Assembly: GCA_963971405.1 (NCBI GenBank)
Contig: OZ020492.1
Coordinates: 5,766,001-5,830,000, forward strand
Reading direction: 5' to 3'
DNA length: 64,000 nt
DNA from: Psococerastis gibbosa
Taxonomy: Eukaryota > Arthropoda > Insecta > Psocodea > Psocidae
In this document: positions 9,391 through 48,842 of the stretch, piece after piece
Position numbering within the stretch: the first letter of the stretch is position 1
How the letters are laid out: the number at the start of each line of letters is the position of its first letter
Notes under the pieces: model-generated
Told to the model about the DNA's origin: nothing
Database searches by the model: none
What the model saw: only the letters and a program-made list of their open reading frames with translations
Made by a program: the position numbers and the translations under genes

Positions 9391-9479
9391 TAAGTAATAA
9401 GATCTATGTCAGCTCACCACTCTAAATATAAAAGAACCGGTCCGAGTTTGGTGAGGTGAGGTAGCCTCAATATATTTAA

Positions 9480-12842: not shown

Positions 12843-13028
12843 ATACCTCTTTCAGTAGTGATATGATAACATTCGATAGTTAGGGAGAATATCATTGTAA
12901 ATTACAATACCTTTTTGGCATCGCTCCCATAACTATTTTGTAATACATGCCACCCAAATATATGGTGAAACAAGAGAATTGGACGGCACGTGTAAGTCTG
13001 ATGATGGTGTAATCACGGTTAGAACTGT

Positions 13029-16052: not shown

Positions 16053-16996
16053 CTAGTAGTAACCCCCAAAGTCGCCAATGATGTTGATGCCCTTCTGCTT
16101 CATGAAGAAATCACCAAAGTTGCCCATATCATTCTGCCTCTTGAAGAAATGCCCAAAGTTGCCAAAATCATTCTGCCTCTTGAAGTCATCTCCAAAGTCA
16201 CCATAATTGTTGGAAGCCTTCAGCTCGCAGACTAAATCCCCAAAGTGCCTATTTCGGTTGGGACCTTGGGCAAAGTGGATATGTCCATTTTCGTCGATAT
16301 ATGTTGTTTGCCTCTTGAAAAAATCACGAAAGATGCCGAAATCATTTTGCCTCTTGTAGAAATCTCCAAAGTTGCCAAAATCATTCTGCCTCTTGGAGTC
16401 ATCTCCAAAGTCACCATAGTTGTTGGAAGCCTTCAGCTCGCAGACTAAATCCCCAAAGTGCCTATTTCGGTTGGGACCTTGGGCAAAGTGGATATGACCA
16501 TTTTCGTCGATATATGTTGTTTGCCTCTTGAAAAAATCACGAAAGATGCCGAAATCATTTTGCCTCTTGTAGAAATCACCAATGTTGCCGAAATCATTCT
16601 GCCGCATGTAAAAGCCTGTAAATAGGAGATTGTTCAATGTTAGGTTCTATTTGTTGTCGGGAATTACGGATGTCTAGTAATTTAAGCAAAAGTAATTATG
16701 TATATAGGTATGTATAATTAAGTATATAGTATATATTAGGGGATTTCTGTGGATGATAGTTATGAACATATTATTCCTAACTATTTAGATTATAATGTGA
16801 GAGAGAGTCAGTTTTACTTTCAATAGGGAGACAATTAAGATTATTATGAACATCGACGCCCAGAGCCAGAGTTTTTCTCCAATTAAATTTGCGCACAAAA
16901 AAACTTACCTGGAGCCGGAGTAGTAACTGATTCTTGGCCGTATACAGCACCCACTAACACGGCGAGGCATGCCAAGCACAATAGACATTTGAACAT
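16053..16996 (-). CDS. Secreted multi-peptide precursor, array copy 1
   Basis: Exon 1 is 16909..16996 and exon 2 is 16053..16615; a 293-bp intron (donor GTAAGT, acceptor TCCTATTTACAG) interrupts a Gly codon. The 216-residue product has a signal peptide (MFKCLLCLACLAVLVGAVYG) and then a chain of short segments each ending in Lys-Arg and each followed by Gln: QNDFGNIGDFYKR, QNDFGIFRDFFKR, and a 45-residue spacer (QTTYIDENGHIHF...GDFGDDSKR) with one Cys. A 71-residue block (QNDFGNFGDFYKR, QNDFGIFRDFFKR, spacer) is duplicated in tandem. The C-terminal part has QNDFGNFGHFFKR and a QNDMGNFGDFFMK-containing tail. KR sites suit furin/PC-type cleavage in the secretory route. N-terminal Gln could cyclise to pyroglutamate. 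There is no Gly before KR, so no amidation is expected. TATAAAAG lies at 17046-17053. Compared with copy 3 it lacks one 39-bp module. I recognise no family; neuropeptide, defence peptide or secreted structural polymer are all possible. Confidence 0.75.
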
Positions 16997-17045
16997 CTTA
17001 ATGCAAAGGATTGTTCTAGTGTGCTGTTAACACATTTTGAATCCG

Positions 17046-17053
17046 CTTTTATA
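17046..17053 (-). promoter_or_regulatory. TATA box of copy 1
   Basis: TATAAAAG on the minus strand, 50 nt upstream of the ATG, predicting a start site near 17020-17025 (around TTAACAGCAC). The same octamer is kept at 13951-13958, 21349-21356, 25734-25741, 34467-34474, 38847-38854, 43221-43228 and 47598-47605. It is altered only in copy 4. Confidence 0.75.
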
Positions 17054-17511
17054 TCCAGCTTATTAAAAATTATCAGTGCAATAACACTGTGGCATTATCA
17101 AATTGGTTGTATAAACAGCATATATTGGTAATATTAATGTCGTATCATGAAATAATGAGGTCGATAATTAGGGTTTTTATGGGCCTATTATTATAGCAAC
17201 TCATGTAACTTACGTACATTCTGCTCATTAATAATAATTGCTGTTTAATTTTGGCATTGGCTGTAAAAGGGCAATTTGGCCATATTGACGTTGTAACCAG
17301 AAATTAAAATGCCTAATATTTTGCTTTGGCCTTGAATTTAATGAGGACCTATGACATATTAAATTTGTGTGCGTTCAACACTTTATGATTGCACTGATTA
17401 TATAGCGTTTCTTCATTCGAATTTAGGCTTAAGTGAGGCCTAATGAGGGCCGGGTTCTTTTGCAAATCACGTTTAACAGCTATTTCGGTGATATCTTCAT
17501 CATCATTTAAG

Positions 17512-17860
17512 AGAAGAACCATCCGAAACCTAATATGTAAAGAGCACAACGAGTCAACCCGTACGTGCCTTCCGATTCATAAAAATTAGTATTAGTAGGT
17601 AGCGAGATAGCTAACGAGAGGTGATCAACGGCAAATAATTTTCCTATGGTTAAATTTTCGGCTATTAGACAGTGTGCAAAGCAGAAGAACCATCAGAAAC
17701 ATAATATGTAAAGAGCACAACGAGTCAACCCGTACGTGCCTTTCGATTCATCAAAATTAGTATTAGTAGGTAGCGAGATAGCTAATGTGAGGAGTTCAAT
17801 GGCAAATAATTTTCCTATTGTTAAATTTTCGGCTACTATACAGTGTGCAAAGCAGTGAGG
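17512..17860. repeat. Internal 171-bp tandem duplication in each A half
   Basis: AGAAGAACCATC, ATATGTAAAGAGCACAACGAG, GTCAACCCGTACGTGCC and the following AAATTTTCGGCTA block occur twice, 171 bp apart (17512 and 17683). The duplication is present in all A halves I checked. It is single in the left-edge unit (about 14220-14400) and in the B halves, so it arose after the left-edge unit separated but before amplification. Confidence 0.75.
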
Positions 17861-18479
17861 CGATAATTTCTTCATATATCGGTACTAGGCCTACGTCAAT
17901 TTCAAAACAAAATTTATCTTTGGTTCTTGCTACCACAAAGCACGTAAATCCGCTAAAATTTCAAAGATTTCTTAAATTATAAGGCTTTTTCATAATAGGC
18001 TAACGTATAAATAAGAAAGCAATAAGCTAAGAGGGTGGGGGAGATGTAGATGTTGGAAATTGGAAGTATGAGTGAGTATCGTAACAGAGGGAAAGGGAGG
18101 GAAAAGAATCCCTCGGGGATGGTGCATGCAGTGGTCAGCGTCAAGGTGGGACTAAGATGCGAATCCTGTTCCCGTATATTCTTTTCCTTATCATTCTTTC
18201 TATCATTCCCTGACTGAATAGGGTTTCTTCAAGGTTAAATAGGTGGCACCACTATTACCAAGCACGGATCTACGGGGGGGGGGGGGGCTATGAGGCTATA
18301 CACTGACAAGTGCCTCCTCCCTTTATGAGGTCCGAGACCGCCTCTGATTATTTTGACAATTCTTTGCAATTCATCTTTTTTCATCGGATTTAATCATAGC
18401 CCCCTCCATGACAGTTTTAATTCTAGCAATTAACTGTTGTGCTTTTAATTAATGCATGAGTGAGAGTCAGTAAAGTTCT

Positions 18480-19680
18480 ACTCTTATAAGGAGTAATTAT
18501 GTAAATAGGTATGTATATATGTGTATATAGTACATAGTATAGTATATAGCATATATTATATATCTGGGGATTTCTGTGGATGATCTTTATGGACATATTA
18601 TTTCTAATTCTGTAAGTTATAATTTGAGAGAGAGTCAGTTCTACTTTCAATAGGGAGATAATTATGTTTATTACAGCTTATTAAAAATTATAAGTGCAAT
18701 AACACTGTCACATTTTCAAATTGGTCGTATATCCAGTATATATTGGTAAAATTAATGTCGTAACAAGAAATAATGAGGTGTATTATTAGGCAATTTGGCC
18801 ATATTGACGTTGTCACAAGAAATCAATATGCCTAATATTTGGTTTTGATTTGCTTTGGCCTTGAATTTAATGAGGACCTATGTAATATTAAATTTGTGTG
18901 CGTTCATCACATTATGATTGCACTGATTATATAGCTTTTTTTCATTCAAATTTAGGTTTAAGTGAGGCCTTAAGTGAGCCGGGATCATTTGCAAATTACA
19001 TTTAACAGCTATTTCGGTGATATATCCGCATCATTACTAAAGAGAAAAACCATCAGAAACATAATATGTAAGAAGCACAAAGAGTCAACCCGTACATGCC
19101 TTCCGATTCATCAAAATTAGTATTAGTATAGGTAGCGAGATAGCTTATGAGAGATGTTCAATGGCAAATAATTGACCTATGATTAAATTTTCGGCTACTA
19201 TACAGTTTGCAAAACAGTGAGGCATGAATTAGCAATAATTTCCTCAAATATCGGTACTAGGCCTACGTCTTTTTCCAAATCGAAATTTATCCTTGTTCTC
19301 TGTGTCTTGGTAACACAAAGCGTGTAAATCCGATGCAATTTCAACCATTTCTTAAGTTATAAAGCTTTTTTATAATAGGCTAACGTTTACATAAGAAAGC
19401 AAAATGCAAAGAGGGTGGGGTTGATGTTGGAAATTGGAAGTATGAGGGAGAATCGTAAGTGAGGGTAAGTGAGGGAAAAGAATCCCTCGGGGGACAATTA
19501 TGTTTATTATGAACATCGACGCCACATGAGAATGGCTGTCTCCATTTTATACCCTTGTACAAAAATGGTTGGAGGGGCACCAAATTATACACCCCCCCCC
19601 GGTTACGCCTCTGATTACATTGGCAATTTATTGCAATTCATCTCTTTTATTCGTATTTAATATTACCCCCTCCTTGGTCA
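18480..19680. repeat. B half of unit 1: gene-less paralogue of the A half
   Basis: The segment from GGAGTAATTATGTAAATAGG (18490) to the T1-like end near 19400 follows the A-half order (GAGAGAGAGTCAGTTCTACTT, GCAATAACACTG, TTTTGCAAATTACATTTAACAG, GTCAACCCGTACATGCC) with diverged sequence. The stretch from the first exon through the TATA box is absent. The tail (about 19490-19680) carries a C tract and GGTTACGCCTC. Short frames here (for example 18423-18650, 19380-19592) recur in every unit only because the DNA recurs. They lack signals of coding selection. Confidence 0.7.
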
Positions 19681-20395
19681 CTCAATTTGGGGTGTTTAAT
19701 TCTCCAAAATAACGTCTAAAAGCATTATTCCTCAATAACGGCACCAACTGTGGGGTAATCTGTTGGTCTGACCTATCTAGAATTTATCTCACCTCTAGTA
19801 ACGTCAGGTGGACATCCCTTTCCCCCTCCCGATGAGCTTCAAGATATGTAGGGGGCGCGGTCCCCTTACCGTGAAGTGGATAACTAGTGTTTGGCTTAAT
19901 TTAAGTTATGACCATTTTTAAGAGTAGAGCAGTATAACAACAAAGAGAGTAGCACTTTCCTTCGAAAATTTTCTCTCGTTTTAAATCCTTCGAAAGTATT
20001 CCCAAGTTAGCAACTACAAAAAATTAATTATCACTTAACTTGAATTAATGTGCATTATGATTTTACAAAGTTTCTCCTAGAACTCTAAACTTTTAATCGT
20101 ATACAGTATATACCTATCCCGAAGTGGGTCGTTATAGCATTAGCCTATAGCGAAACCGGTAAGACAAAAGGGGAATTGTGACCGTATTTTATTTATTGAT
20201 GAAAAACTTTGAGATTGGACAATAATGAAGCTTGTACGAGTTAACACGGGTAATGCTATAGCCCAAAAACCTACTTAACAACCATACATTTTTTTAAGTC
20301 AAATTTGCAATAGGCTTACATAAAAGGAAAAATTCAGAAAAGTTAAATTATTATTATATTATTATTGTTATTCATGAATTGTTTATGTACTGCCT

Positions 20396-21299
20396 CTAGT
20401 AGTAATCCCCAAAGTCGCCAATGATGTTGATGCCCTTCTGCTTCATGAAGAAATCACCAAAGTTGCCCATATCATTCTGCCTCTTGAAGTCATCTCCAAA
20501 GTCACCATAATTGTTGGAAGCCTTCAGCTCGCAGACTAAATCCCCAAAGTGCCTATTTCGGTTGGGACCTTGTGCAAAGTGGATATGTCCATTTTCGTCG
20601 ATATATGTTGTTTGCCTCTTGAAAAAATCACGAAAGATGCCGAAATCATTTTGCCTCTTGTAGAAATCTCCAAAGTTGCCAAAATCATTCTGCCTCTTGG
20701 AGTCATCTCCAAAGTCACCATAGTTGTTGGAAGCCTTCAGCTCGCAGACTAAATCCCCAAAGTGCCTATTTCGGTTGGGACCTTGGGCAAAGTGGATATG
20801 ACCATTTTCGTCGATATATGTTGTTTGCCTCTTGAAAAAATCACGAAAGATGCCGAAATCGTTCTGCCTCCTGAAGAAATCACCAATTTGCCGAAATCAT
20901 TCTGCCGCATGTAAAAGCCTGTAAATAGGAGATTGTTCAATGTTAGGTTCTATTTGTTGTCGGGAATTACGGATGTCTAGTAATTAAAGCAAAAGTAATT
21001 ATGTATATAGGTATGTATATTTAAGTATATAGTATATATCAGGGGATTTCTGTGGATGATAGTTATGAACATATTATTCCTAACTATTTAGATTATAATG
21101 TGAGAGAGAGTCAGTTCTACTTTCAATAGGGAGACAATTAAATTTATTATTAACATCGACGCCCAGAGCCAGAGTTTTTCTCCAATTAAATTTGCGCACA
21201 AAAAAACTTACCTGGAGCCGGAGTAGTAACTGATTCTTGGCCGTATACAGCACCCACTAACACGGCGGGGCATGCCAAGCACAATAGACATTTGAACAT
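20396..21299 (-). pseudogene. Multi-peptide precursor, array copy 2, frameshifted
   Basis: Exon 1 is 21212..21299 and exon 2 is 20396..20918. Near 20886 a one-base deletion (CACCAATTTGCC instead of CACCAATGTTGCC) shifts the frame right after the first QNDFG, and a stop at 20749 follows in the shifted frame. Exon 1 also carries a Leu-to-Pro change in the hydrophobic core of the signal peptide (C-P-A in place of C-L-A). Two 39-bp modules are missing compared with copy 3: one near the start and the QNDFGNFGHFFKR module near the end. TATA box (21349-21356) and splice sites are intact, so it may still be transcribed. An assembly error could explain the deletion but not the Pro substitution. Confidence 0.7.
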
Positions 21300-24200
21300 C
21301 TTAATGCAAAGGATTGTTCTAGTGTGCTGTTTACACATTTTGAATCCGCTTTTATATCCAGCTTATTAAAAATTATCAGTGCAATAACACTGTGGCATTA
21401 TCAAATTGGTTGTATAAACAGCATATATTGGTAATATTAATGTCGTATCATGAAATAATGAGGTCGATAATTAGGGTTTTTATGGGCCTATTATTATAGC
21501 AACTCATGTAACTTACGTACATTCTGCTCATTAATAATAATTGCTGTTTAATTTTGGCATTGGCTGTAAAAGGGCAATTTGGCCATATTGACGTTGTAAC
21601 CAGAAATTAAAATGCCTAATATTTTGCTTTGGTCTTGAATTTAATGAGGACCTATGACATATTAAATTTGTGTGCGTTCAACACTTTATGATTGCACTGA
21701 TTATATAGCGTTTCTTCATTCGAATTTAGGCTTAAGTGAGGCCTGATGAGGGCCGGGTTCTTTTGCAAATCACGTTTAACAGCTATTTCGGTGATATCTT
21801 CATCATCATTTAAGAGAAGAACCATCCGAAACCTAATATGTAAAGAGCACAACGAGTCAACCCGTACGTGCCTTCCGATTCATCAAAATTAGTATTAGTA
21901 GGTAGCGAGATAGCTAACGAGAGGTGATCAACGGCAAATAATTTTCCTATGGTTAAATTTTCGGCTATTAGACAGTGTGCAAAGCAGAAGAACCATCAGA
22001 AACATAATATGTAAAGAGCACAACGAGTCAACCCGTACGTGCCTTTCGATTCATCAAAATTAGTATTAGTAGGTAGCGAGATAGCTAATGTGAGGTGTTC
22101 AATGGCAAATAATTTTCCTATTGTTAAATTTTCGGCTACTATACAGTGTGCAAAGCAGTGAGGCGATAATTTCTTCAAATATCGGTACTAGGCCTACGTC
22201 AATTTCAAAACAAAATTTATCTTTGGTTCTTGCTACCACAAAGCACGTAAATCCGCTAAAATTTCAAAGATTTCTTAAATTATAAGGCTTTTTCATAATA
22301 GGCTAACGTATAAATAAGAAAGCAATAAGCTAAGAGGGTGGGGGAGATGTAGATGTTGGAAATTGGAAGTATGAGTGAGTATCGTAACAGAGGGAAAGGG
22401 AGGGAAAAGAATCCCTCGGGTATGGTGCATGCAGTGGTCAGCGTCAAGGTGGGACTAAGATGCGAATCCTGTTCCCGTATATTCTTTTCCTTATCATTCT
22501 TTCTATCATTCCCTGACTGAATAGGGTTTCTTCAAGGTTAAATAGGTGGCACCACTATTACCAAGCACGGATCTACGGGGGGGGGGGGGGGCTATGAGGC
22601 TATACACTGACAAGTGCCTCCTCCCTTTATGAGGTCCGAGACCGCCTCTGATTATTTTGACAATTCTTTGCAATTCATCTTTTTTCATCGGATTTAATCA
22701 TAGCCCCCTCCATGACAGTTTTAATTCTAGCAATTAACTGTTGTGCTTTTAATTAATGCATGAGTGAGAGTCAGTAAAGTTCTACTCTTAAAAGGAGTAA
22801 TTATGTATATAGGTATGTATATATGTGTATATAGTACATAGTATAGTATATAGCATATAGTATATGTCTGGGGATTTCTGTGGATGATCTTTATGGACAT
22901 ATTATTTCTAATTCTGTAAGTTATTATGTGAGAGAGAGTCAGTTCTACTTTCAATAGGGAGATAATTATGTTTATTACAGCTCATTAAAAATTATAAGTG
23001 CAATAACACTGTCACATTTTCAAATTGGTCGTATATCCAGTATATATTGGTAAAATTAATGTCGTAACAAGAAATAATGAGGTGTATTATTAGGCAATTT
23101 GGCCATATTGACGTTGTCACAAGAAATCAATATGCCTAATATTTGGTTTTGATTTGCTTTGGCCTTGAATTTAATGAGGACCTATGTAATATTAAATTTG
23201 TGTGCGTTCATCACTTTATGATTGCACTGATTATATAGCTTTTTTTCATTCAAATTTAGGTTTAAGTGAGGCCTTAAGTGAGCCGGGATCTTTTGCAAAT
23301 TACATTTAACAGCTATTTCGGTGATATATCCGCATCATTACTAAAGAGAAAAACCATCAGAAACATAATATGTAAGAAGCACAAAGAGTCAACCCGTACA
23401 TGCCTTCCGATTCATCAAAATTAGTATTAGTATAGGTAGCGAGATAGCTTATGAGAGATGTTCAATGGCAAATAATTGACTTATGATTAAATTTTCGGCT
23501 ACTATACAGTTTGCAAAGCAGTGAGGCATGAATTAGCAATAATTTCCTCAAATATCGGTACTGGGCCTACGTCTTTTTCCAAATCGAAATTTATCCTTGT
23601 TCTCTGTGTCTTGGTAACACAAAGCGTGTAAATCCGATGCAATTTCAATCATTTCTTAAGTTATAAAGCTTTTTTATAATAGGCTAACGTATACATAAGA
23701 AAGCAAAATGCAAAGAGGGTGGGGTTGATGTTGGAAATTGGAAGTATGAGGGAGAATCGTAAGTGAGGGTAAGTGAGGGAAAAGAATCCCTCGGGGGACA
23801 ATTATGTTTATTATGAACATCGACGCCACATGAGAATGGCTGTCTCCATTTTATACCCTTGTACAAAAATGGTTGGAGGGGCACCAAATTATACACCCCC
23901 CCCCCCGGTTACGCCTCTGATTACATTGGCAATTTATTGCAATTCACCTCTTTTATTCGTATTTAATATTACCCCCTCCTTGGTCACTCAATTTGGGTTG
24001 TTTAATTCTCCAAAATAACGTCTAAAAGCATTATTCCTCAATAACGGCACCAACTGTGGGGTAATCTGTTGGTCTGACCTATCTAGAATTTATCTCACCT
24101 CTAGTAACGTCAGGTGGACATCCCTTTCCCCCTCCCGATGAGCTTCAAGATATGTAGGGGGCGCGGTCCCCTTACCGTGAAGTGGATAACTAGTGTTTGG

Positions 24201-24701
24201 CTTAATTTAAGTTATGACCATTTTTAAGAGTAGAGCAGTATAACAACAAAGAGAGTAGCACTTTGCTTCGAAAATTTTCTCTCGTTTTAAATCCTTCGAA
24301 AGTATTCCCAAGTTAGCAACTACAAAAAATTAATTATCACTTAACTTGAATTAATGTGCATTATGATTTTACAAAGTTTCTCCTAGAACTCTAAACTTTT
24401 AATCGTATACAGTATATACCTATCCCGAAGTGGGTCGTTATAGCATTAGCCTATAGCGAAACCGGTAAGACAAAAGGGGAATTGTGACCGTATTTTATTT
24501 ATTGATGAAAAACTTTGAGATTGGACAATAATGAAGCTTGTATGAGTTAACACGGGTAATGCTATAGCCCAAAAACCTACTTAACATCCATACATTTTTT
24601 TAAGTCAAATTTGCAATAGGCTTACATAAAAGGAAAAATTCAGAAAAGTTAAATTATTATTATATTATTATTGTTATTCATGAATTGTTTATGTACTGCC
24701 T

Positions 24702-25684
24702 CTAGTAGTAATCCCCAAAGTCGCCAATGATGTTGATGCCCTTCTGCTTCATGAAGAAATCACCAAAGTTGCCCATATCATTCTGCCTCTTGAAGAAATG
24801 CCCAAAGTTGCCAAAATCATTCTGCCTCTTGAAGTCATCTCCAAAGTCACCATAATTGTTGGAAGCCTTCAGCTCGCAGACTAAATCCCCAAAGTGCCTA
24901 TTTCGGTTGGGACCTTGTGCAAAGTGGATATGTCCATTTTCGTCGATATATGTTGTTTGCCTCTTGAAAAAATCACGAAAGATGCCGAAATCATTTTGCC
25001 TCTTGTAGAAATCTCCAAAGTTGCCAAAATCATTCTGCCTCTTGGAGTCATCTCCAAAGTCACCATAGTTGTTGGAAGCCTTCAGCTCGCAGACTAAATC
25101 CCCAAAGTGCCTATTTCGGTTGGGACCTTGGGCAAAGTGGATATGACCATTTTCGTCGATATATGTTGTTTGCCTCTTGAAAAAATCACGAAAGATGCCG
25201 AAATCATTTTGCCTCTTGTAGAAATCACCAAAGTTGCCGAAATCGTTCTGCCTCCTGAAGAAATCACCAATGTTGCCGAAATCATTCTGCCGCATGTAAA
25301 AGCCTGTAAATAGGAGATTGTTCAATGTTAGGTTCTTTTTGTTGTCGGGAATTACGGATGTCTAGTAATTTAAGCAAAAGTAATTATGTATATAGGTATG
25401 TATAATTAAGTATATAGTATATATTAGGGGATTTCTGTGGATGATAGTTATGAACATATTATTCCTAACTATTTAGATTATAATGTGAGAGAGAGTCAGT
25501 TTTACTTTCAATAGGGAGACAATTAAGATTATTATGAACATCGACGCCCAGAGCCAGAGTTTTTCTCCAATTAAATTTGCGCACAAAAAAACTTACCTGG
25601 AGCCGGAGTAGTAACTGATTCTTGGCCGTATACAGCACCCACTAACACGGCGAGGCATGCCAAGCACAATAGACATTTGAACAT
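24702..25684 (-). CDS. Secreted multi-peptide precursor, array copy 3
   Basis: Exon 1 is 25597..25684 and exon 2 is 24702..25303, giving 229 residues, the majority form. After the signal peptide and a short QESVTTPAPGFYMR leader come QNDFGNIGDFFRR, QNDFGNFGDFYKR, QNDFGIFRDFFKR and the 45-residue spacer. Then come the second QNDFGNFGDFYKR, QNDFGIFRDFFKR and spacer (ending DDFKR), and finally QNDFGNFGHFFKR and the tail ending IIGDFGDYY. The first processing site is Arg-Arg rather than Lys-Arg. TATA box 25734-25741. Its upstream leader intron shares GGTTCTTTTTGTTGTCGG with copy 4 only. Confidence 0.75.
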
Positions 25685-28600: not shown

Positions 28601-29089
28601 TATGACCATTTTTAAGAGTAGAGCAGTATGACAACAAAGAGAGTAGCACTTTGCTTCGAAAATTTTCTCTCGTTTTAAATCCTTCGAAAGTATTCCCAAG
28701 TTAGCAACTACAAAAAATTAATTATCACTTAACTTGAATTAATGTGCATTATGATTTTACAAAGTTTCTCCTAGAACTCTAAACTTTTAATCGTATACAG
28801 TATATACCTATCCCGAAGTGGGTCGTTATAGCATTAGCCTATAGCGAAACCGGTAAGACAAAAGGGGAATTGTGACCGTATTTTATTTATTGATGAAAAA
28901 CTTTGAGATTGGACAATAATGAAGCTTGTACGAGTTAACACGGGTAATGCTATAGCCCAAAAACCTACTTAACATCCATACATTTTTTTAAGTCAAATTT
29001 GCAATAGGCTTACATAAAAGGAAAAATTCAGAAAAGTTAAATTATTATTATATTATTATTGTTATTCATGAATTGTTTATGTACTGCCT

Positions 29090-30072
29090 CTAGTAGTAAT
29101 CCCCAAAGTCGCCAATGATGTTGATGCCCTTCTGCTTCATGAAGAAATCACCAAAGTTGCCCATATCATTCTGCCTCTTGAAGAAATGCCCAAAGTTGCC
29201 AAAATCATTCTGCCTCTTGAAGTCATCTCCAAAGTCACCATAATTGTTGGAAGCCTTCAGCTCGCAGACTAAATCCCCAAAGTGCCTATTTCGGTTGGGA
29301 CCTTGTGCAAAGTGGATATGTCCATTTTCGTCGATATATGTTGTTTGCCTCTTGAAAAAATCACGAAAGATGCCGAAATCATTTTGCCTCTTGTAGAAAT
29401 CTCCAAAGTTGCCAAAATCATTCTGCCTCTTGGAGTCATCTCCAAAGTCACCATAGTTTTTGGAAGCCTTCAGCTCGCAGACTAAATCCCCAAAGTGCCT
29501 ATTTCGGTTGGGACCTTGGGCAAAGTGGATATGACCATTTTCGTCGATATATGTTGTTTGCCTCTTGAAAAAATCACGAAAGATGCCGAAATCATTTTGC
29601 CTCTTGTAGAAATCACCAAAGTTGCCGAAATCGTTCTGCCTCCTGAAGAAATCACCAATGTTGCCGAAATCATTCTGCCGCATGTAAAAGCCTGTAAATA
29701 GGAGATTGTTCAATGTTAGGTTCTTTTTGTTGTCGGGAATTACGGATGTCTAGTAATTTAAGCAAAAGTAATTATGTATATAGGTATGTATAATTAAGTA
29801 TATAGTATATATTAGGGGATTTCTGTGGATGATAGTTATGAACATATTATTCCTAACTATTTAGATTATAATGTGAGAGAGAGTCAGTTTTACTTTCAAT
29901 AGGGAGACAATTAAGATTATTATGAACATCGACGCCCAGAGCCAGAGTTTTTCTCCAATTAAATTTGCGCACAAAAAAACTTACCTGGAGCCGGAGTAGT
30001 AACTGATTCTTGGCCGTATACAGCACCCACTAACACGGCGAGGCATGCCAAGCACAATAGACATTTGAACAT
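29090..30072 (-). CDS. Secreted multi-peptide precursor, array copy 4 (altered TATA box)
   Basis: Exon 1 is 29985..30072 and exon 2 is 29090..29691; 229 residues in the majority arrangement. One residue differs in the first spacer (KASKNYGDF instead of KASNNYGDF, from TAGTTTTTGG at about 29455). The reading frame and splice sites are intact, but the TATA box carries a substitution, reading TATTAAAG on the minus strand, so expression may differ from the other copies. Confidence 0.75.
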
Positions 30073-30121
30073 CTTAATGCAAAGGATTGTTCTAGTGTGC
30101 TGTTTACACATTTTGAATCCG

Positions 30122-30129
30122 CTTTAATA
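30122..30129 (-). promoter_or_regulatory. Mutated TATA box of copy 4
   Basis: The plus strand reads CCGCTTTAATATCC where all other copies have CCGCTTTTATATCC (T to A at 30126). The octamer becomes TATTAAAG. Spacing to the ATG is unchanged. Confidence 0.6.
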
Positions 30130-33100: not shown

Positions 33101-33473
33101 ATTAATTATCACTTAACTTGAATTAATGTGCATTATGATTTTACAAAGTTTCTCCTAGAACTCTAAACTTTTAATCGTATACAGTATATACCTATCCCGA
33201 AGTGGGTCGTTATAGCATTAGCCTATAGCGAAACCGGTAAGACAAAAGGGGAATTGTGACCGTATTTTATTTATTGATGAAAAACTTTGAGATTGGACAA
33301 TAATGAAGCTTGTACGAGTTAACACGGGTAATGCTATAGCCCAAAAACCTACTTAACATCCATACATTTTTTTAAGTCAAATTTGCAATAGGCTTACATA
33401 AAAGGAAAAATTCAGAAAAGTTAAATTATTATTATATTACTATTGTTATTCATGAATTGTTTATGTACTGCCT

Positions 33474-34417
33474 CTAGTAGTAATCCCCAAAGTCGCCAAT
33501 GATGTTGATGCCCTTCTGCTTCATGAAGAAATCACCAAAGTTGCCCATATCATTCTGCCTCTTGAAGAAATGCCCAAAGTTGCCAAAATCATTCTGCCTC
33601 TTGAAGTCATCTCCAAAGTCACCATAATTGTTGGAAGCCTTCAGCTCGCAGACTAAATCCCCAAAGTGCCTATTTCGGTTGGGACCTTGTGCAAAGTGGA
33701 TATGTCCATTTTCGTCGATATATGTTGTTTGCCTCTTGAAAAAATCACGAAAGATGCCGAAATCATTTTGCCTCTTGTAGAAATCTCCAAAGTTGCCAAA
33801 ATCATTCTGCCTCTTGGAGTCATCTCCAAAGTCACCATAGTTGTTGGAAGCCTTCAGCTCGCAGACTAAATCCCCAAAGTGCCTATTTCGGTTGGGACCT
33901 TGGGCAAAGTGGATATGACCATTTTCGTCGATATATGTTGTTTGCCTCTTGAAAAAATCACGAAAGATGCCGAAATCGTTCTGCCTCCTGAAGAAATCAC
34001 CAATGTTGCCGAAATCATTCTGCCGCATGTAAAAGCCTGTAAATAGGAGATTGTTCAATGTTAGGTTCTATTTGTTGTCGGGAATTACGGATGTCTAGTA
34101 ATTAAAGCAAAAGTAATTATGTATATAGGTATGTATATTTAAGTATATAGTATATATCAGGGGATTTCTGTGGATGATAGTTATGAACATATTATTCCTA
34201 ACTATTTAGATTATAATGTGAGAGAGAGTCAGTTCTACTTTCAATAGGGAGACAATTAAATTTATTATGAACATCGACGCCCAGAGCCAGAGTTTTTCTC
34301 CAATTAAATTTGCGCACAAAAAAACTTACCTGGAGCCGGAGTAGTAACTGATTCTTGGCCGTATACAGCACCCACTAACACGGCGAGGCATGCCAAGCAC
34401 AATAGACATTTGAACAT
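33474..34417 (-). CDS. Secreted multi-peptide precursor, array copy 5
   Basis: Exon 1 is 34330..34417 and exon 2 is 33474..34036; 216 residues. It lacks the second 13-residue module, so QNDFGNIGDFFRR is followed directly by QNDFGIFRDFFKR. Copy 1 has the same length but a different junction (QNDFGNIGDFYKR), so the two losses are independent. Non-coding flanks pair it with copy 2 (GTATATTTAAG, ATATATCAGGGG, GACAATTAAATTT) rather than with its neighbours. TATA box 34467-34474. Confidence 0.75.
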
Positions 34418-37400: not shown

Positions 37401-37814
37401 TAAATCCTTCGAAAGTATTCCCAAGTTAGCAACTACAAAAAATTAATTATCACTTAACTTGAATTAATGTGCATTATGATTTTACAAAGTTTCTCCTAGA
37501 ACTCTAAACTTTTAATCGTATATAGTATATACCTATCCCGAAGTGGGTCGTTATAGCATTAGCCTATAGCGAAACCGGTAAGACAAAAGGGGAATTGTGA
37601 CCGTATTTTATTTATTGATGAAAAACTTTGAGATTGGACAATAATGAAGCTTGTACGAGTTAACACGGGTAATGCTATAGCCCAAAAACCTACTTAACAT
37701 CCATACATTTTTTTAAGTCAAATTTGCAATAGGCTTACATAAAAGGAAAAATTCAGAAAAGTTAAATTATTATTATATTATTATTGTTATTCATGAATTG
37801 TTTATGTACTGCCT

Positions 37815-38797
37815 CTAGTAGTAATCCCCAAAGTCGCCAATGATGTTGATGCCCTTCTGCTTCATGAAGAAATCACCAAAGTTGCCCATATCATTCTGCC
37901 TCTTGAAGAAATGCCCAAAGTTGCCAAAATCATTCTGCCTCTTGAAGTCATCTCCAAAGTCACCATAATTGTTGGAAGCCTTCAGCTCGCAGACTAAATC
38001 CCCAAAGTGCCTATTTCGGTTGGGACCTTGTGCAAAGTGGATATGTCCATTTTCGTCGATATATGTTGTTTGCCTCTTGAAAAAATCACGAAAGATGCCG
38101 AAATCATTTTGCCTCTTGTAGAAATCTCCAAAGTTGCCAAAATCATTCTGCCTCTTGGAGTCATCTCCAAAGTCACCATAGTTGTTGGAAGCCTTCAGCT
38201 CGCAGACTAAATCCCCAAAGTGCCTATTTCGGTTGGGACCTTGGGCAAAGTGGATATGACCATTTTCGTCGATATATGTTGTTTGCCTCTTGAAAAAATC
38301 ACGAAAGATGCCGAAATCATTTTGCCTCTTGTAGAAATCACCAAAGTTGCCGAAATCGTTCTGCCTCCTGAAGAAATCACCAATGTTGCCGAAATCATTC
38401 TGCCGCATGTAAAAGCCTGTAAATAGGAGATTGTTCAATGTTAGGTTCTATTTGTTGTCGAGAATTACGGATGTCTAGTAATTTAAGCAAAAGTAATTAT
38501 GTATATAGGTATGTATAATTAAGTATATAGTATATATTAGGGGATTTCTGTGGATGATAGTTATGAACATATAATTCCTAACTATTTAGATTATAATGTG
38601 AGAGAGAGTCAGTTTTACTTTCAATAGGGAGACAATTAAGATTATTATGAACATCGACGCCCAGAGCCAGAGTTTTTCTCCAATTAAATTTGCGCACAAA
38701 AAAACTTACCTGGAGCCGGAGTAGTAACTGATTCTTGGCCGTATACAGCACCCACTAACACGGCGAGGCATGCCAAGCACAATAGACATTTGAACAT
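37815..38797 (-). CDS. Secreted multi-peptide precursor, array copy 6
   Basis: Exon 1 is 38710..38797 and exon 2 is 37815..38416; 229 residues with an amino-acid sequence identical to copy 3 in exon 2 as translated. TATA box 38847-38854. Its intron shares GTCGAGAATTACGG with copies 7 and 8 (others GTCGGGAATTACGG), placing it in the right-hand subgroup of the array. Confidence 0.75.
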
Positions 38798-41700
38798 CTT
38801 AATGCAAAGGATTGTTCTAGTGTGCTGTTTACACATTTTGAATCCGCTTTTATATCCAGCTTATTAAAAATTATCAGTGCAATAACACTGTGGCATTATC
38901 AAATTGGTTGTATAAACAGCATATATTGGTAATATTAATGTCGTATCATGAAATAATGAGGTCGATAATTAGGGTTTTTATGGGCCTATTATTATAGCAA
39001 CTCATGTAACTTACGTACATTCTGCTCATTAATAATAATTGCTGTTTAATTTTGGCATTGGCTGTAAAAGGGCAATTTTGCCATATTGACGTTGTAACCA
39101 GAAATTAAAATGCCTAATATTTTGCTTTGGCCTTGAATTTAATGAGGACCTATGACATATTAAATTTGTGTGCGTTCAACACTTTATGATTGCACTGATT
39201 ATATAGCGTTTCTTCATTCGAATTTAGGCTTAAGTGAGGCCTAATGAGGGCCGGGTTCTTTTGCAAATCACGTTTAACAGCTATTTCGGTGATATCTTCA
39301 TCATCATTTAAGAGAAGAACCATCCGAAACCTAATATGTAAAGAGCACAACGAGTCAACCCGTACGTGCCTTCCGATTCATCAAAATTAGTATTAGTAGG
39401 TAGCGAGATAGCTAACGAGAGGTGATCAACGGCAAATAATTTTCCTATGGTTAAATTTTCGGCTATTAGACAGTGTGCAAAGCAGAAGAACCATCAGAAA
39501 CATAATATGTAAAGAGCTCAACGAGTCAACCCGTACGTGCCTTTCGATTCATCAAAATTAGTATTAGTAGGTAGCGAGATAGCTAATGTGAGGTGTTCAA
39601 TGGCAAATAATTTTCCTATTGTTAAATTTTCGGCTACTATACAGTGTGCAAAGCAGTGAGGCGATAATTTCTTCAAATATCGGTACTAGGCCTACATCAA
39701 TTTCAAAACAAAATTTATCTTTGGTTCTTGCTACCACAAAGCACGTAAATCCGCTAAAATTTCAAAGATTTCTTAAATTATAAGGCTTTTTCATAATAGG
39801 CTAACGTATAAATAAGAAAGCAATAAGCTAAGAGGGTGGGGGAGATGTAGATGTTGGAAATTGGAAGTATGAGTGAGTATCGTAACAGAGGGAAAGGGAG
39901 GGAAAAGAATCCCTCGGGTATGGTGCATGCAGTGGTCAGCGTCAAGGTGGGACCAAGATGCGAATCCTGTTCCCGTATATTCTTTTCCTTATCATTCTTT
40001 CTATCATTCCCAGACTGAAGAGGATTTCTTCAAGGTAAAATAGGTGGCACCACTATTACCAAGCACGGATCTACGGGGGGGGGGGGGCTATGAGGCTATA
40101 CACTGACAAGTGCCTCCTCCCTTTATGAGGTCCGAGACCGCCTCTGATTATTTTGACAATTCTTTGCAATTCATCTTTTTTCATCGGATTTAATCATAGC
40201 CCCCTCCATGACAGTTTTAATTCTAGCAATTAACTGTTGTGCTTTTAATTAATGCATGAGTGAGAGTCAGTAAAGTTCTACTCTTAAAAGGAGTAATTAT
40301 GTATATATGTGTATATAGTACATAGTATAGTATATAGCATATAGTATATATCTGGGGATTTCTGTGGATGATCTTTATGGACATATTATTTCTAATTCTG
40401 TAAGTTATAATGTGAGAGAGAGTCAGTTCTACTTTCAATAGGGAGATAATTATGTTTATTACAGCTTATTAAAAATTATAAGTGCAATAACACTGTCACA
40501 TTTTCAAATTGGTCGTATATCCAGTATATATTGGTAAAATTAATGTCGTAACAAGAAATAATGAGGTGTATTATTAGGCAATTTGGCCATATTGACGTTG
40601 TCACAAGAAATCAATATGCCTAATATTTGGTTTTGATTTGCTTTGGCCTTGAATTTAATGAGGACCTATGTAATATTAAATTTGTGTGCGTTCATCACTT
40701 TATGATTGCACTGATTATATAGCTTTTTTTCATTCAAATTTAGGTTTAAGTGAGGCCTTAAGTGAGCCGGGATCTTTTGCAAATTACATTTAACAGCTAT
40801 TTCGGTGATGTATCCGCATCATTACTAAAGAGAAAAACCATCAGAAACATAATATGTAAGAAGCACAAAGAGTCAACCCGTACATGCCTTCCGATTCATC
40901 AAAATTAGTATTAGTATAGGTAGCGAGATAGCTTATGAGAGATGTTCAATGGCAAATAATTGACCTATGATTAAATTTTCGGCTACTATACAGTTTGCAA
41001 AGCAGTGAGGCATGAATTAGCAATAATTTCCTCAAATATCGGTACTAGGCCTACGTCTTTTTCCAAATCGAATTTTATCCTTGTTCTCTGTGTCTTGGTA
41101 ACACAAAGCGTGTAAATCCGATGCAATTTCAATCATTTCTTAAGTTATAAAGCTTTTTTATAATAGGCTAACGTATACATAAGAAAGCAAAATGCAAAGA
41201 GGGTGGGGTTGATGTTGGAAATTGGAAGTATGAGGGAGAATCGTAAGTGAGGGTAAGTGAGGGAAAAGAATCCCTCGGGGGACAATTATGTTTATTATGA
41301 ACATCGACGCCACAAGAGAATGGCTGTCTCCATTTTATACCCTTGAGCAAAAATGGTTGGAGGGGCACCAAATTATACACCCCCCCCCCCCCCGGTTACG
41401 CCTCTGATTACATTGGCAATTTATTGCAATTCATCTCTTTTATTCGTATTTAATATTACCCCCTCCTTGGTCACTCAATTTGGGGTGTTTAATTCTCCAA
41501 AATAACGTCTAAAAGCATTATTCCTCAATAACGGCACCAACTGTGGGGTAATCTGTTGGTCTGACCTATCTAGAATTTATCTCACCTCTAGTAACGTCAG
41601 GTGGACATCCCTTTCCCCCTCCCGATGAGCTTCAAGATATGTAGGGGGCGCGGTCCCCTTACCGTGAAGTGGATAACTAGTGTTTGGCTTAATTTAAGTT

Positions 41701-42188
41701 ATGACCATTTTTAAGAGTAGAGCAGTATAACAACAAAGAGAGTAGCACTTTGCTTCGAAAATTTTCTCTCGTTTTAAATCCTTCGAAAGTATTCCCAAGT
41801 TAGCAACTACAAAAAATTAATTATCACTTAACTTGAATTAATGTGCATTATGATTTTACAAAGTTTCTCCTAGAACTCTAAACTTTTAATCGTATATAGT
41901 ATATACCTATCCCGAAGTGGGTCGTTATAGCATTAGCCTATAGCGAAACCGGTAAGACAAAAGGGGAATTGTGACCGTATTTTATTTATTGATGAAAAAC
42001 TTTGAGATTGGACAATAATGAAGCTTGTACGAGTTAACACGGGTAATGCTATAGCCCAAAAACCTACTTAACATCCATACATTTTTTTAAGTCAAATTTG
42101 CAATAGGCTTACATAAAAGGAAAAATTCAGAAAAGTTAAATTATTATTATATTATTATTGTTATTCATGAATTGTTTATGTACTGCCT

Positions 42189-43171
42189 CTAGTAGTAATC
42201 CCCAATGTCGCCAATGATGTTGATGCCCTTCTGCTTCATGAAGAAATCACCAAAGTTGCCCATATCATTCTGCCTCTTGAAGAAATGCCCAAAGTTGCCA
42301 AAATCATTCTGCCTCTTGAAGTCATCTCCAAAGTCACCATAATTGTTGGAAGCCTTCAGCTCGCAGACTAAATCCCCAAAGTGCCTATTTCGGTTGGGAC
42401 CTTGTGCAAAGTGGATATGTCCATTTTCGTCGATATATGTTGTTTGCCTCTTGAAAAAATCACGAAAGATGCCGAAATCATTTTGCCTCTTGTAGAAATC
42501 TCCAAAGTTGCCAAAATCATTCTGCCTCTTGGAGTCATCTCCAAAGTCACCATAGTTGTTGGAAGCCTTCAGCTCGCAGACTAAATCCCCAAAGTGCCTA
42601 TTTCGGTTGGGACCTTGGGCAAAGTGGATATGACCATTTTCGTCGATATATGTTGTTTGCCTCTTGAAAAAATCACGAAAGATGCCGAAATCATTTTGCC
42701 TCTTGTAGAAATCACCAAAGTTGCCGAAATCGTTCTGCCTCCTGAAGAAATCACCAATGTTGCCGAAATCATTCTGCCGCATGTAAAAGCCTGTAAATAG
42801 GAGATTGTTCAATGTTAGGTTCTATTTGTTGTCGAGAATTACGGATGTCTAGTAATTTAAGCAAAAGTAATTATGTATATAGGTATGTATAATTAAGTAT
42901 ATAGTATATATTAGGGGATTTCTGTGGATGATAGTTATGAACATATTATTCCTAACTATTTAGATTATAATGTGAGAGAGAGTCAGTTTTACTTTCAATA
43001 GGGAGACAATTAAGATTATTATGAACATCGACGCCCAGAGCCAGAGTTTTTCTCCAATTAAATTTGCGCACAAAAAAACTTACCTGGAGCCGGAGTAGTA
43101 ACTGATTCTTGGCCGTATACAGCACCCACTAACACGGCGAGGCATGCCAAGCACAATAGACATTTGAACAT
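42189..43171 (-). CDS. Secreted multi-peptide precursor, array copy 7
   Basis: Exon 1 is 43084..43171 and exon 2 is 42189..42790; 229 residues. The only visible amino-acid change against the majority form is in the C-terminal tail (IIGDIGDYY instead of IIGDFGDYY, from CCCCAATGTCGCC at about 42200). TATA box 43221-43228. Upstream non-coding DNA shares GGCAATTTTGCC with copy 6 (others GGCAATTTGGCC). Confidence 0.75.
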
Positions 43172-46100
43172 CTTAATGCAAAGGATTGTTCTAGTGTGCT
43201 GTTTACACATTTTGAATCCGCTTTTATATCCAGCTTATTAAAAATTATCAGTGCAATAACACTGTGGCATTATCAAATTGGTTGTATAAACAGCATATAT
43301 TGGTAATATTAATGTCGTATCATGAAATAATGAGGTCGATAATTAGGGTTTTTATGGGCCTATTATTATAGCAACTCATGTAACTTACGTACATTCTGCT
43401 CATTAATAATAATTGCTGTTTAATTTTGGCATTGGCTGTAAAAGGGCAATTTTGCCATATTGACGTTGTAACCAGAAATTAAAATGCCTAATATTTTGCT
43501 TTGGCCTTGAATTTAATGAGGACCTATGACATATTAAATTTGTGTGCGTTCAACACTTTATGATTGCACTGATTATATAGCGTTTCTTCATTCGAATTTA
43601 GGCTTAAGTGAGGCCTAATGAGGGCCGGGTTCTTTTGCAAATCACGTTTAACAGCTATTTCGGTGATATCTTCATCATCATTTAAGAGAAGAACCATCCG
43701 AAACCTAATATGTAAAGAGCACAACGAGTCAACCCGTACGTGCCTTCCGATTCATCAAAATTAGTATTAGTAGGTAGCGAGATAGCTAACGAGAGGTGAT
43801 CAACGGCAAATAATTTTCCTATGGTTAAATTTTCGGCTATTAGACAGTGTGCAAAGCAGAAGAACCATCAGAAACATAATATGTAAAGAGCTCAACGAGT
43901 CAACCCGTACGTGCCTTTCGATTCATCAAAATTAGTATTAGTAGGTAGCGAGATAGCTAATGTGAGGTGTTCAATGGCAAATAATTTTCCTATTGTTAAA
44001 TTTTCGGCTACTATACAGTGTGCAAAGCAGTGAGGCGATAATTTCTTCAAATATCGGTACTAGGCCTACATCAATTTCAAAACAAAATTTATCTTTGGTT
44101 CTTGCTACCACAAAGCACGTAAATCCGCTAAAATTTCAAAGATTTCTTAAATTATAAGGCTTTTTCATAATAGGCTAACGTATAAATAAGAAAGCAATAA
44201 GCTAAGAGGGTGGGGGAGATGTAGATGTTGGAAATTGGAAGTATGAGTGAGTATCGTAACAGAGGGAAAGGGAGGGAAAAGAATCCCTCGCGGATGGTGC
44301 ATGCAGTGGTCAGCGTCAAGGTGGGACTAAGATGCGAATCCTGTTCCCGTATATTCTTTTCCTTATCATTCTTTCTATCATTCCCTGACTGAATAGGGTT
44401 TCTTCAAGGTTAAATAGGTGGCACCACTATTACCAAGCACGGATCTACGGGGGGGGGGGGGGGGCTATGAGGCTATACACTGACAAGTGCCTCCTCCCTT
44501 TATGAGGTCCGAGACCGCCTCTGATTATTTTGACAATTCTTTGCAATTCATCTTTTTTCATCGGATTTAATCATAGCCCCCTCCATGACAGTTTTAATTC
44601 TAGCAATTAACTGTTGTGCTTTTAATTAATGCATGAGTGAGAGTCAGTAAAGTTCTACTCTTAAAAGGAGTAATTATGTATATATGTGTATATAGTACAT
44701 AGTATAGTATATAGCATATAGTATATATCTGGGGATTTCTGTGGATGATCTTTATGGACATATTATTTCTAATTCTGTAAGTTATAATGTGAGAGAGAGT
44801 CAGTTCTACTTTCAATAGGGAGATAATTATGTTTATTACAGCTTATTAAAAATTATAAGTGCAATAACACTGTCACATTTTCAAATTGGTCGTATATCCA
44901 GTATATATTGGTAAAATTAATGTCGTAACAAGAAATAATGAGGTGTATTATTAGGCAATTTGGCCATATTGACGTTGTCACAAGAAATCAATATGCCTAA
45001 TATTTGGTTTTGATTTGCTTTGGCCTTGAATTTAATGAGGACCTATGTAATATTAAATTTGTGTGCGTTCATCACTTTATGATTGCACTGATTATATAGC
45101 TTTTTTTCATTCAAATTTAGGTTTAAGTGAGGCCTTAAGTGAGCCGGGATCTTTTGCAAATTACATTTAACAGCTATTTCGGTGATGTATCCGCATCATT
45201 ACTAAAGAGAAAAACCATCAGAAACATAATATGTAAGAAGCACAAAGAGTCAACCCGTACATGCCTTCCGATTCATCAAAATTAGTATTAGTATAGGTAG
45301 CGAGATAGCTTATGAGAGATGTTCAATGGCAAATAATTGACCTATGATTAAATTTTCGGCTACTATACAGTTTGCAAAGCAGTGAGGCATGAATTAGCAA
45401 TAATTTCCTGAAATATCGGTACTAGGCCTACGTCTTTTTCCAAATCGAAATTTATCCTTGTTCTCTGTGTCTTGGTAACACAAAGCGTGTAAATCCGATG
45501 CAATTTCAATCATTTCTTAAGTTATAAAGCTTTTTTATAATAGGCTAACGTATACATAAGAAAGCAAAATGCAAAGAGGGTGGGGTTGATGTTGGAAATT
45601 GGAAGTCTGAGGGAGAATCGTAAGTGAGGGTAAGTGAGGGAAAAGAATCCCTCGGGGGACAATTATGTTTATTATGAACATCGACGCCACAAGAGAATGG
45701 CTGTCTCCATTTTATACCCTTGAGCAAAAATGGTTGGAGGGGCACCAAATTATACACCCCCCCCCCCCCCGGTTACGCCTCTGATTACATTGGCAATTTA
45801 TTGCAATTCATCTCTTTTATTCGTATTTAATATTACCCCCTCCTTGGTCACTCAATTTGGGGTGTTTAATTCTCCAAAATAACGTCTAAAAGCATTATTC
45901 CTCAATAACGGCACCAACTGTGGGGTAATCTGTTGGTCTGACCTATCTAGAATTTATCTCACCTCTAGTAACGTCAGGTGGACATCCCTTTCCCCCTCCC
46001 GATGAGCTTCAAGATATGTAGGGGGCGCGGTCCCCTTACCGTGAAGTGGATAACTAGTGTTTGGCTTAATTTAAGTTATGACCATTTTTAAGAGTAGAGC

Positions 46101-46565
46101 AGTATAACAACAAAGAGAGTAGCACTTTGCTTCGAAAATTTTCTCTCGTTTTAAATCCTTCGAAAGTATTCCCAAGTTAGCAACTACAAAAAATTAATTA
46201 TCACTTAACTTGAATTAATGTGCATTATGATTTTACAAAGTTTCTCCTAGAACTCTAAACTTTTAATCGTATATAGTATATACCTATCCCGAAGTGGGTC
46301 GTTATAGCATTAGCCTATAGCGAAACCGGTAAGACAAAAGGGGAATTGTGACCGTATTTTATTTATTGATGAAAAACTTTGAGATTGGACAATAATGAAG
46401 CTTGTACGAGTTAACACGGGTAATGCTATAGCCCAAAAACCTACTTAACATCCATACATTTTTTTAAGTCAAATTTGCAATAGGCTTACATAAAAGGAAA
46501 AATTCAGAAAAGTTAAATTATTATTATATTATTATTGTTATTCATGAATTGATTATGTACTGCCT

Positions 46566-47548
46566 CTAGTAGTAATCCCCAAAGTCGCCAATGATGTTGA
46601 TGCCCTTCTGCTTCATGAAGAAATCACCAAAGTTGCCCATATCATTCTGCCTCTTGAAGAAATGCCCAAAGTTGCCAAAATCATTCTGCCTCTTGAAGTC
46701 ATCTCCAAAGTCACCATAATTGTTGGAAGCCTTCAGCTCGCAGACTAAATCCCCAAAGTGCCTATTTCGGTTGGGACCTTGTGCAAAGTGGATATGTCCA
46801 TTTTCGTCGATATATGTTGTTTGCCTCTTGAAAAAATCACGAAAGATGCCGAAATCATTTTGCCTCTTGTAGAAATCTCCAAAGTTGCCAAAATCATTCT
46901 GCCTCTTGGAGTCATCTCCAAAGTCACCATAGTTGTTGGAAGCCTTCAGCTCGCAGACTAAATCCCCAAAGTGCCTATTTCGGTTGGGACCTTGGGCAAA
47001 GTGGATATGACCATTTTCGTCGATATATGTTGTTTGCCTCTTGAAAAAATCACGAAAGATGCCGAAATCATTTTGCCTCTTGTAGAAATCACCAAAGTTG
47101 CCGAAATCGTTCTGCCTCCTGAAGAAATCACCAATGTTGCCGAAATCATTCTGCCGCATGTAAAAGCCTGTAAATAGGAGATTGTTCAATGTTAGGTTCT
47201 ATTTGTTGTCGAGAATTACGGATGTCTAGTAATTTAAGCAAAAGTAATTATGTATATAGGTATGTATAATTAAGTATATAGTATATATTAGGGGATTTCT
47301 GTGGATGATAGTTAAGAACATATTATTCCTAACTATTTAGATTATAATGTGAGAGAGAGTCAGTTTTACTTTCAATAGGGAGACAATTAAGATTATTATG
47401 AACATCGACGCCCAGAGCCAGAGTTTTTCTCCAATTAAATTTGCGCACAAAAAAACTTACCTGGAGCCGGAGTAGTAACTGATTCTTGGCCGTATACAGC
47501 ACCCACTAACACGGCGAGGCATGCCAAGCACAATAGACATATGAACAT
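46566..47548 (-). CDS. Secreted multi-peptide precursor, array copy 8
   Basis: Exon 1 is 47461..47548 and exon 2 is 46566..47167; 229 residues. The signal peptide starts MFIC instead of MFKC (Lys3 to Ile, AAA to ATA), which removes its only basic residue and may weaken targeting. Exon 2 is of the majority type. TATA box 47598-47605. This is the last gene-bearing unit; the DNA to its right decays into rearranged fragments. Confidence 0.75.
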
Positions 47549-48828: not shown

Positions 48829-48842
48829 AAGGGGGGGGGGGG
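48829..48842 (+). repeat. Interrupted G tract of unit 8
   Basis: The G homopolymer found in every A half after GGATCTACG appears here as TCTTCGGGAA followed by G12. The corresponding uninterrupted tracts in units 1-7 are G14, G15, G16, G14, G21, G13 and G16 (near 18274, 22577, 26962, 31350, 35695, 40075 and 44449). Confidence 0.7.

Follow-up and report, generated by a model that had tools for sequence, protein, structure and literature searches.

The window analysed here, a 64,000-nucleotide (nt) stretch of the genome of the psocid insect Psococerastis gibbosa (C20:5766001-5830000 of a 409-Mb, 68-contig assembly), carries on its minus strand eight tandem units of approximately 4.38 kb, each containing a two-exon gene. 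We lean towards the reading, drawn from sequence, that these genes encode secreted precursors from which cleavage at dibasic sites releases non-amidated peptides, probably with an N-terminal pyroglutamate, that the genes have been amplified for high output, and that the peptides serve an exocrine or humoral effector role and not that of classical neuropeptides. A preliminary description of the same DNA had proposed a secreted multi-peptide precursor, and this design is supported by the signal peptide and the dibasic-bounded repeated peptides found in the predicted products, which are the features of that class. The gene anatomy is of a known kind. The family, its size and a switch from linear to cysteine-rich products under one expression cassette look new, and the genes appear, on these sequence features, to represent an undescribed secreted-peptide superfamily in this genome.

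An array of eight two-exon genes

Within each unit, a TATA-like element precedes two exons separated by a 293-bp intron; the first encodes the signal peptide and the second a series of peptides that begin with Gln and are separated by KR or RR. The eight minus-strand ATGs, at 47548, 43171, 38797, 34417, 30072, 25684, 21299 and 16996, confirm the eight-unit tandem array of the preliminary description, and its two-exon structure is found in every copy, with a GTAAGT donor ending exon 1 and an intron of 293 bp. The frame is intact in seven of the eight copies, as had been claimed, and these encode an open product of 216 or 229 amino acids (aa); the exception is the copy at 21299, which is frameshifted early in exon 2. 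The TATA box that had been assigned to each unit is present as ATATAAAAG, approximately 60 nt upstream of the ATG, in seven copies, but the copy at 30072 reads ATATTAAAG instead. All eight copies carry two motifs downstream of the stop codon, AATAAA after 199 nt and ATTAAA after 299 nt. The genes and associated elements, all on the minus strand, are as follows.

46566..47548: gene copy 1; exon 1 47461-47548, intron 293 bp, exon 2 46566-47167, 229 aa
42189..43171: gene copy 2; exon 1 43084-43171, exon 2 42189-42790, 229 aa
37815..38797: gene copy 3 (reference copy); exon 1 38710-38797, exon 2 37815-38416, 229 aa
33474..34417: gene copy 4; exon 1 34330-34417, exon 2 33474-34036, 216 aa (minus one 39-nt module)
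29090..30072: gene copy 5; exon 1 29985-30072, exon 2 29090-29691, 229 aa; TATA element replaced by ATATTAAAG
24702..25684: gene copy 6; exon 1 25597-25684, exon 2 24702-25303, 229 aa
20396..21299: gene copy 7; exon 1 21212-21299, early exon-2 frameshift, two 39-nt modules lost
16053..16996: gene copy 8 (edge copy); exon 1 16909-16996, exon 2 16053-16615, 216 aa
38847..38854: TATA element of copy 3, within a promoter block of approximately 100 bp common to the superfamily
37611..37616: AATAAA of copy 3, 199 nt past the stop codon
35920..36206: promoter and intron relic without exons in the unit of copy 3 (unit positions 2792-3078)
47752..53398: incomplete units upstream of copy 1, without exons 1 and 2
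13817..13901: diverged relic with exon 1 only and a GTAGGT donor; exon 2 is missing because homology jumps from unit position 504 to 1632

The seven full-length units measure 4303-4388 nt and share pairwise identities of 99.1-99.7%. The edge copy at 16996 is truncated; across the 2.2 kb in which it is homologous, it matches the others at 98.2-98.6% of ungapped columns, whereas the remaining copies are 99.1-99.9% identical among themselves over the same stretch. The array is bordered by incomplete units on either side, at 13.3-14.9 kb, where the 13901 relic lies, and at 47.8-53.4 kb. That the edges of the array are more diverged than its middle suggests a history of unequal exchange. A promoter-plus-intron relic lacking exons is present in all seven full-length units, and we read it as the probable remnant of an older duplicate. 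Separately, TAGGCCTA palindromes were observed within the array. Together with the CpG ratio they had hinted at a deuterostome, such as an echinoderm, a reading dropped in view of the cuticle-domain matches and the insect-type orcokinin gene described below.

Predicted precursor products

The product begins with a signal peptide (MFKCLLCLACLAVLVGAVYG), called by eye and from its hydrophobic core, followed by a short QESVTTPAPG segment and then by peptides separated by KR or RR. The mature part, in which 7 of 209 residues are His, is richest in F, G, D and N. In the 229-aa product, Gln follows all eight dibasic sites, an outcome obtained in at most 3 of 20,000 shuffles, with the caveat that the sites are not independent because the modules are duplicates. 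Gene models were also constructed by splice rules for 17 genes at other loci, giving 24 models together with the seven window genes (one model has 63 aa). Among these, Gln follows 154 of 165 dibasic sites, and the final piece lacks a terminal dibasic site in every model. Both the Gln-first, KR-separated peptides and the absence of Gly before KR noted earlier are upheld, the latter extending to all 24 modelled genes (0 of 165 pieces).

A 45-residue spacer containing Cys had been reported as a misfit with known families. The spacer with its Cys is indeed present, but it ends in SNNYGDFGDDS-KR, much as an ordinary 14-residue module ends in SNNFGDFGDFF-KR. Because the C-terminal ends are alike, we read the spacer as a probable archetypal module extended N-terminally by 30 residues.

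Selection on the protein

Two intragenic 71-aa repeats differ at seven nucleotides, of which six are synonymous and one changes a residue (P 0.00055, simulation). The ratio of nonsynonymous to synonymous substitution rates (dN/dS) is 0.34 for 52 type-A modules (11 genes) and 0.19 for 36 type-B modules (11 genes), as determined from 16 of the 24 models after near-identical array copies were dropped. Among the seven full-length copies, variable columns are scarcer in coding (4/611) than in non-coding sequence (66/3679; P 0.038), and exon indels are limited to losses of exactly 39 nt, corresponding to one peptide module, and a one-base deletion in copy 7. The junction Arg is retained in 52/52 type-A and 33/36 type-B modules, and the Lys in 49/52 and 31/36, respectively, while some module positions vary among paralogues. 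These substitution patterns show selection on the predicted protein.

Relatives elsewhere in the genome

Matches to exon 2 of the window genes and of a C15 gene, compiled by hand with places within 600 bp merged, define 50 multi-peptide exon-2 places on C1, C2, C3, C15 and C20, in 42 of which the frame stays open for 100 aa or more. Another array of the window type is located approximately 130 kb away (C20:5.63-5.65 Mb). The archetype of the C15 cluster is QQGSNNFGDFGDFF-KR, with up to nine modules per gene. The same genome yields 105 matches to the cuticle domain PF00379, which we take to mark arthropods, and six to the insect odorant-receptor family, few for an ordinary winged insect. By themselves, the cuticle domains and the orcokinin gene described below indicate an arthropod, probably a hexapod.

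Several further features of these loci were observed. In the C15 cluster (L026 and L031), the first peptides of some members contain cysteines (e.g. SMRKNDFCNGNNF, KNNFCNN), and such members are possible intermediates towards a cysteine-rich form. Retroelement-like open reading frames (ORFs) lie inside the same cluster (L023:6294-7424 and L026:5276-6463; DUF4780 and endonuclease-reverse transcriptase). At C1:14316500-14345400 (L012, L013 and L014), exon-1 copies stand face to face approximately 180 bp apart as inverted repeats with their donors meeting, and these adjoin multi-peptide genes on both strands.

A shared promoter-signal cassette and cysteine-rich arrays

A 29-base promoter consensus, allowing up to three mismatches, has 103 matches in the genome, and the reversed pattern has none. 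Many of these matches fall in regions without any detected multi-peptide exon, C20:15.610-15.721 Mb and C19:30.93-30.98 Mb. In the two such stretches that were read, both the promoter and the signal exon recur (MFQLRLVALAAFVVAVYGQDVTMQIPG, with a single residue changed on C19), here joined in silico to a different exon 2. This exon is cysteine-rich, with six cysteines invariant in the four copies that were read and aligned. It has 86 matches in the genome, 74 on C20 and 12 on C19, mostly within a 110-kb array, and the matched stretch is free of stop codons in 84 of the 86. The two arrays, which are represented together by L035 and L036, are located as follows.

C20:15610000-15721500: cysteine-rich array with units of approximately 1458 bp; orientation flips near 15.668 Mb
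C19:30929000-30976000: cysteine-rich array

Among 15 members, mean pairwise identity is 77% in the promoter (-100 to -1), 71% in exon 1 and 54% in the 500 bp further upstream. A search with promoter and exon 1 DNA gave 40 places, with 40 of 121 candidates scored, and was not used for counts. The cysteine-rich protein aligns to the window modules with a score of 60, which was reached in 0/1000 shuffles. Against five other members, shuffles scored as high in 0/1000 cases for the C2 member, 2/1000 for the L026 member and 39, 55 and 119/1000 for the rest, the two L031 members accounting for the 119/1000 and 39/1000 values. These alignments suggest that the cysteine-rich and multi-peptide exons are akin. 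A tree built on the promoter together with exon 1 likewise places the cysteine-rich copies beside a multi-peptide gene, that at C1:48.65 Mb, with support of 92/90; its midpoint root and weak deeper forks make any direction of change in exon 2 putative.

More than 130 exon-2 places (about 50 multi-peptide and 86 cysteine-rich) may stand on one promoter-signal cassette, such that a KR-cut repeat exon turned into a six-cysteine single chain and was then amplified to approximately 86 copies. We regard this history as tentative, a possibility that falls short of being probable. Positive selection in the cysteine-rich branch was considered and not adopted: dN/dS between one C20 and one C19 copy is 2.2, which is not significant (18 nonsynonymous changes per 201 sites versus 2 synonymous per 48, P 0.38; versus 16/282 in the intron, P 0.21).

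Comparison with known families

When exon 2 of the window, C15 and C3 genes and one cysteine-rich exon 2 were searched against Pfam-A, all matches were below the curated cut-off. The sub-threshold matches, to DUF4124 (E 0.002) and Fibrinogen_BP (E 2.6e-6, 26.5 bits versus a cut-off of 50), look short or composition-driven, and each search of the PDB returned one weak, unconvincing match. With no Pfam match above cut-off and no relative in the collections searched, in which animal genomes are few, the earlier assignment to no recognised family stands. Ten peptide strings of the family are absent from the full-text paper library that was searched, and a literature search for a secreted-peptide family with a conserved signal gave no matching paper.

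Orcokinin and pedal-peptide precursors resemble the window products in carrying several non-amidated peptides of similar length between KR sites. However, their peptides differ in sequence from those of the window, and canonical orcokinin is encoded elsewhere in this genome, by a gene (C14:2689877-2689992, L037) with three copies of NFDEIDRSGFNSF(I/V) between basic sites. Orcokinin of 14 residues is the insect type. The orcokinin core NFDEIDR occurs in none of the 24 models. Amidated neuropeptides, such as FMRFamide-like peptides and allatostatin A, are unlike the family in that no dibasic site of the 24 models is preceded by Gly. Conotoxin-type superfamilies combine a conserved signal region with diverged mature regions, some of them cysteine-rich, and are alike by design; they differ in that here the promoter is more conserved than exon 1 and linear multi-peptide forms coexist with the cysteine-rich ones.

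Baramicin A of Drosophila, according to the sections of PMC8423362 used here, is a secreted precursor of tandem pyroglutamate peptides with furin sites. Its tandem related peptides, which are not overtly cationic, are similar to those of the window, and the N-terminal pyroglutamate found there is predicted here. In contrast, its sites are RXRR rather than KR or RR, and those sections describe no comparable gene array (PMC8423362). RXRR and the IM10-like motif VXRPXRTV, the latter taken from the same sections of PMC8423362, occur in 0/24 models. The SpTransformer (Sp185/333) genes of sea urchins, as presented in the excerpts of PMC8634487 and PMC5491942 available to us, have a TATA promoter, tandem segmental duplications of 2.7-2.8 kb and a disordered product. 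They share with the window genes the clustering, the TATA promoter and the two exons (a leader, then a repeat-rich exon 2), but their Gly-rich/RGD/His-rich layout (PMC8634487, PMC5491942) is absent here and the host here is an arthropod. None of the 24 models contains RGD, and the window product has no His-rich part; the same excerpts report that RGD is also missing from most Trf proteins of another urchin (PMC8634487, PMC5491942). Yeast MFalpha1 varies in repeat number, and more repeats give more pheromone with diminishing returns, as stated in the portion of PMC5850478 drawn on here. MFalpha1 and apidaecin precursors are alike by design in holding several peptide copies per precursor (portions of PMC5850478 and PMC8423362), while in the window family the genes themselves are amplified too.

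Neighbouring sequence

At window positions 55156-56088 (minus strand), a 310-aa ORF has a hydrophobic N-terminus and TQGPA-type repeats. The ORF has no Pfam match, and its residues 1-100 have no relative in a set of 5.8 billion proteins. A splice-acceptor-like tattttatag precedes its ATG, so an upstream exon is possible. Translated with stops as X, the flanks gave no Pfam match at 1-13500 on the plus strand (two of three frames), at 1-9990 on the minus strand (three frames), or in any of the three frames at 53001-61500 (plus strand) and at 54100-64000 (minus strand). Scanning the window against Rfam and for tRNA genes likewise gave no match.

Proposed mechanism and alternative explanations

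From this anatomy, we infer how the genes would be expressed and their products processed, and in what kind of tissue and against what kind of target the peptides would act. A compact TATA promoter would drive each gene, yielding a precursor with a signal peptide, a short pro-segment of the QESVTTPAPG type and repeated modules of 11 or 14 residues, each with KR or RR at its end. An enzyme of the furin/PC type would cut after the dibasic sites, a carboxypeptidase would trim the ends and the N-terminal Gln would cyclise. The released peptides would be acidic, rich in Phe, Gly, Asp and Asn, and non-amidated (pGlu-NDFGNFGDFY, pGlu-NDFGIFRDFF, pGlu-QGSNNFGDFGDFF), with a 43-residue one-cysteine peptide as an additional predicted product. 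Copy number is raised twice over, through modules per gene and genes per array, and higher output would follow; the arrays would be homogenised by unequal exchange. Because the promoter and signal exon are common to multi-peptide and cysteine-rich genes, both may be co-expressed as parts of a single secretory programme, whose most likely role is that of an exocrine or humoral effector serving defence, a saliva- or venom-like secretion or a reproductive secretion. An effector fits better than a neuropeptide with the number of copies, the common promoter and the existence of cysteine-rich sister arrays.

Several observations weigh against this proposal. Two junctions in the window product, MR-Q and MK-Q, are not dibasic. 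The predicted peptides are acidic, a type from which most antimicrobial or lytic venom peptides differ. The KR-Q junction is no better conserved than several module positions (type-A G3 and F10 are each kept in 52/52), and its conservation is in part inherited through duplication. Comparison of the edge copy with each other copy by the same kind of test was not significant (P 0.10-0.34), this between-copy test being weak because divergence among the copies is low. The AlphaFold model of exon 2, obtained with no alignment, is unordered (mean predicted local distance difference test score, pLDDT, 39.5), which would suit linear peptides and an uncut repeat protein alike; both AlphaFold models are too weak for interpretation. 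Finally, no relative outside this genome was detected in the 5.8-billion-protein set or among viral and prokaryotic contigs, phages and plasmids, collections that say little about related arthropods because they are mostly not animal genomes.

Some of these points bear on a different type of product, namely a secreted repeat protein with a structural or adhesive role, comparable to silk, glue or matrix, that stays uncut and in which Phe/Gly/Asp/Asn repeats and KR would form a disordered aromatic-cationic matrix. Other module positions are no less conserved than KR, which leaves this explanation some weight, and it would also accommodate low-complexity repeats of variable number, a mature part dominated by F, G, D and N, the lack of a predicted fold, the tandem amplification and the hydrophobic N-terminus and low-complexity repeats of the neighbouring ORF. 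Nevertheless, we consider it unlikely, if far from negligible, given that all eight dibasic sites of the window product precede Gln, that the last piece has no dibasic end in 24/24 models, as cleavage between peptides predicts, and that a one-cysteine 43-residue insert and a six-cysteine branch under the same cassette are ill-suited to a simple fibre. A non-functional tandem repeat or an assembly artefact is very improbable. Although long near-identical arrays are hard to assemble and one of the eight copies is frameshifted, the copies differ by substitutions and module indels, non-coding sequence diverges faster than coding, the intragenic repeats carry a synonymous excess and the family is spread over five contigs.

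Cleaved peptides might instead be neuropeptides or peptide hormones, non-amidated signals of the orcokinin or pedal-peptide kind that were amplified in this lineage. The signal peptide, the KR-bounded repeats and the lack of amidation suit this idea, and the module length of 14 plus KR equals that of this genome's own orcokinin. But orcokinin has its own gene on C14, some module positions differ among paralogues, and approximately 50 multi-peptide places with 86 cysteine-rich matches would be extreme for a neuropeptide; we judge this origin quite doubtful. An immune multi-peptide gene of the Baramicin/apidaecin kind, anti-microbial in haemolymph, would be a narrower form of the effector proposal. 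Baramicin A too has tandem pyroglutamate peptides between furin sites that are not overtly cationic, as given in the sections of PMC8423362 cited above, but its RXRR and IM10-like motifs are found in 0/24 models and no sequence relation was found, leaving this narrower assignment on the unlikely side.

Implications

If the reading proposed here is correct, P. gibbosa would possess a large secreted-peptide system that has so far gone undescribed, with predicted peptides that can be tested. It would also show one expression cassette exchanging the payload it carries, linear repeats giving way to a cysteine-rich chain. Were the cysteine-rich exon indeed derived from the repeat exon, the genome would record a disulfide-rich peptide class emerging from a tandem-repeat precursor, with a new payload behind a retained promoter and signal. 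With possible intermediates in one genome, comprising multi-peptide genes, cysteine-containing C15 variants and cysteine-rich arrays, this route is directly testable. The family would further allow one to ask how the work of raising peptide output is divided between modules per gene and genes per array.

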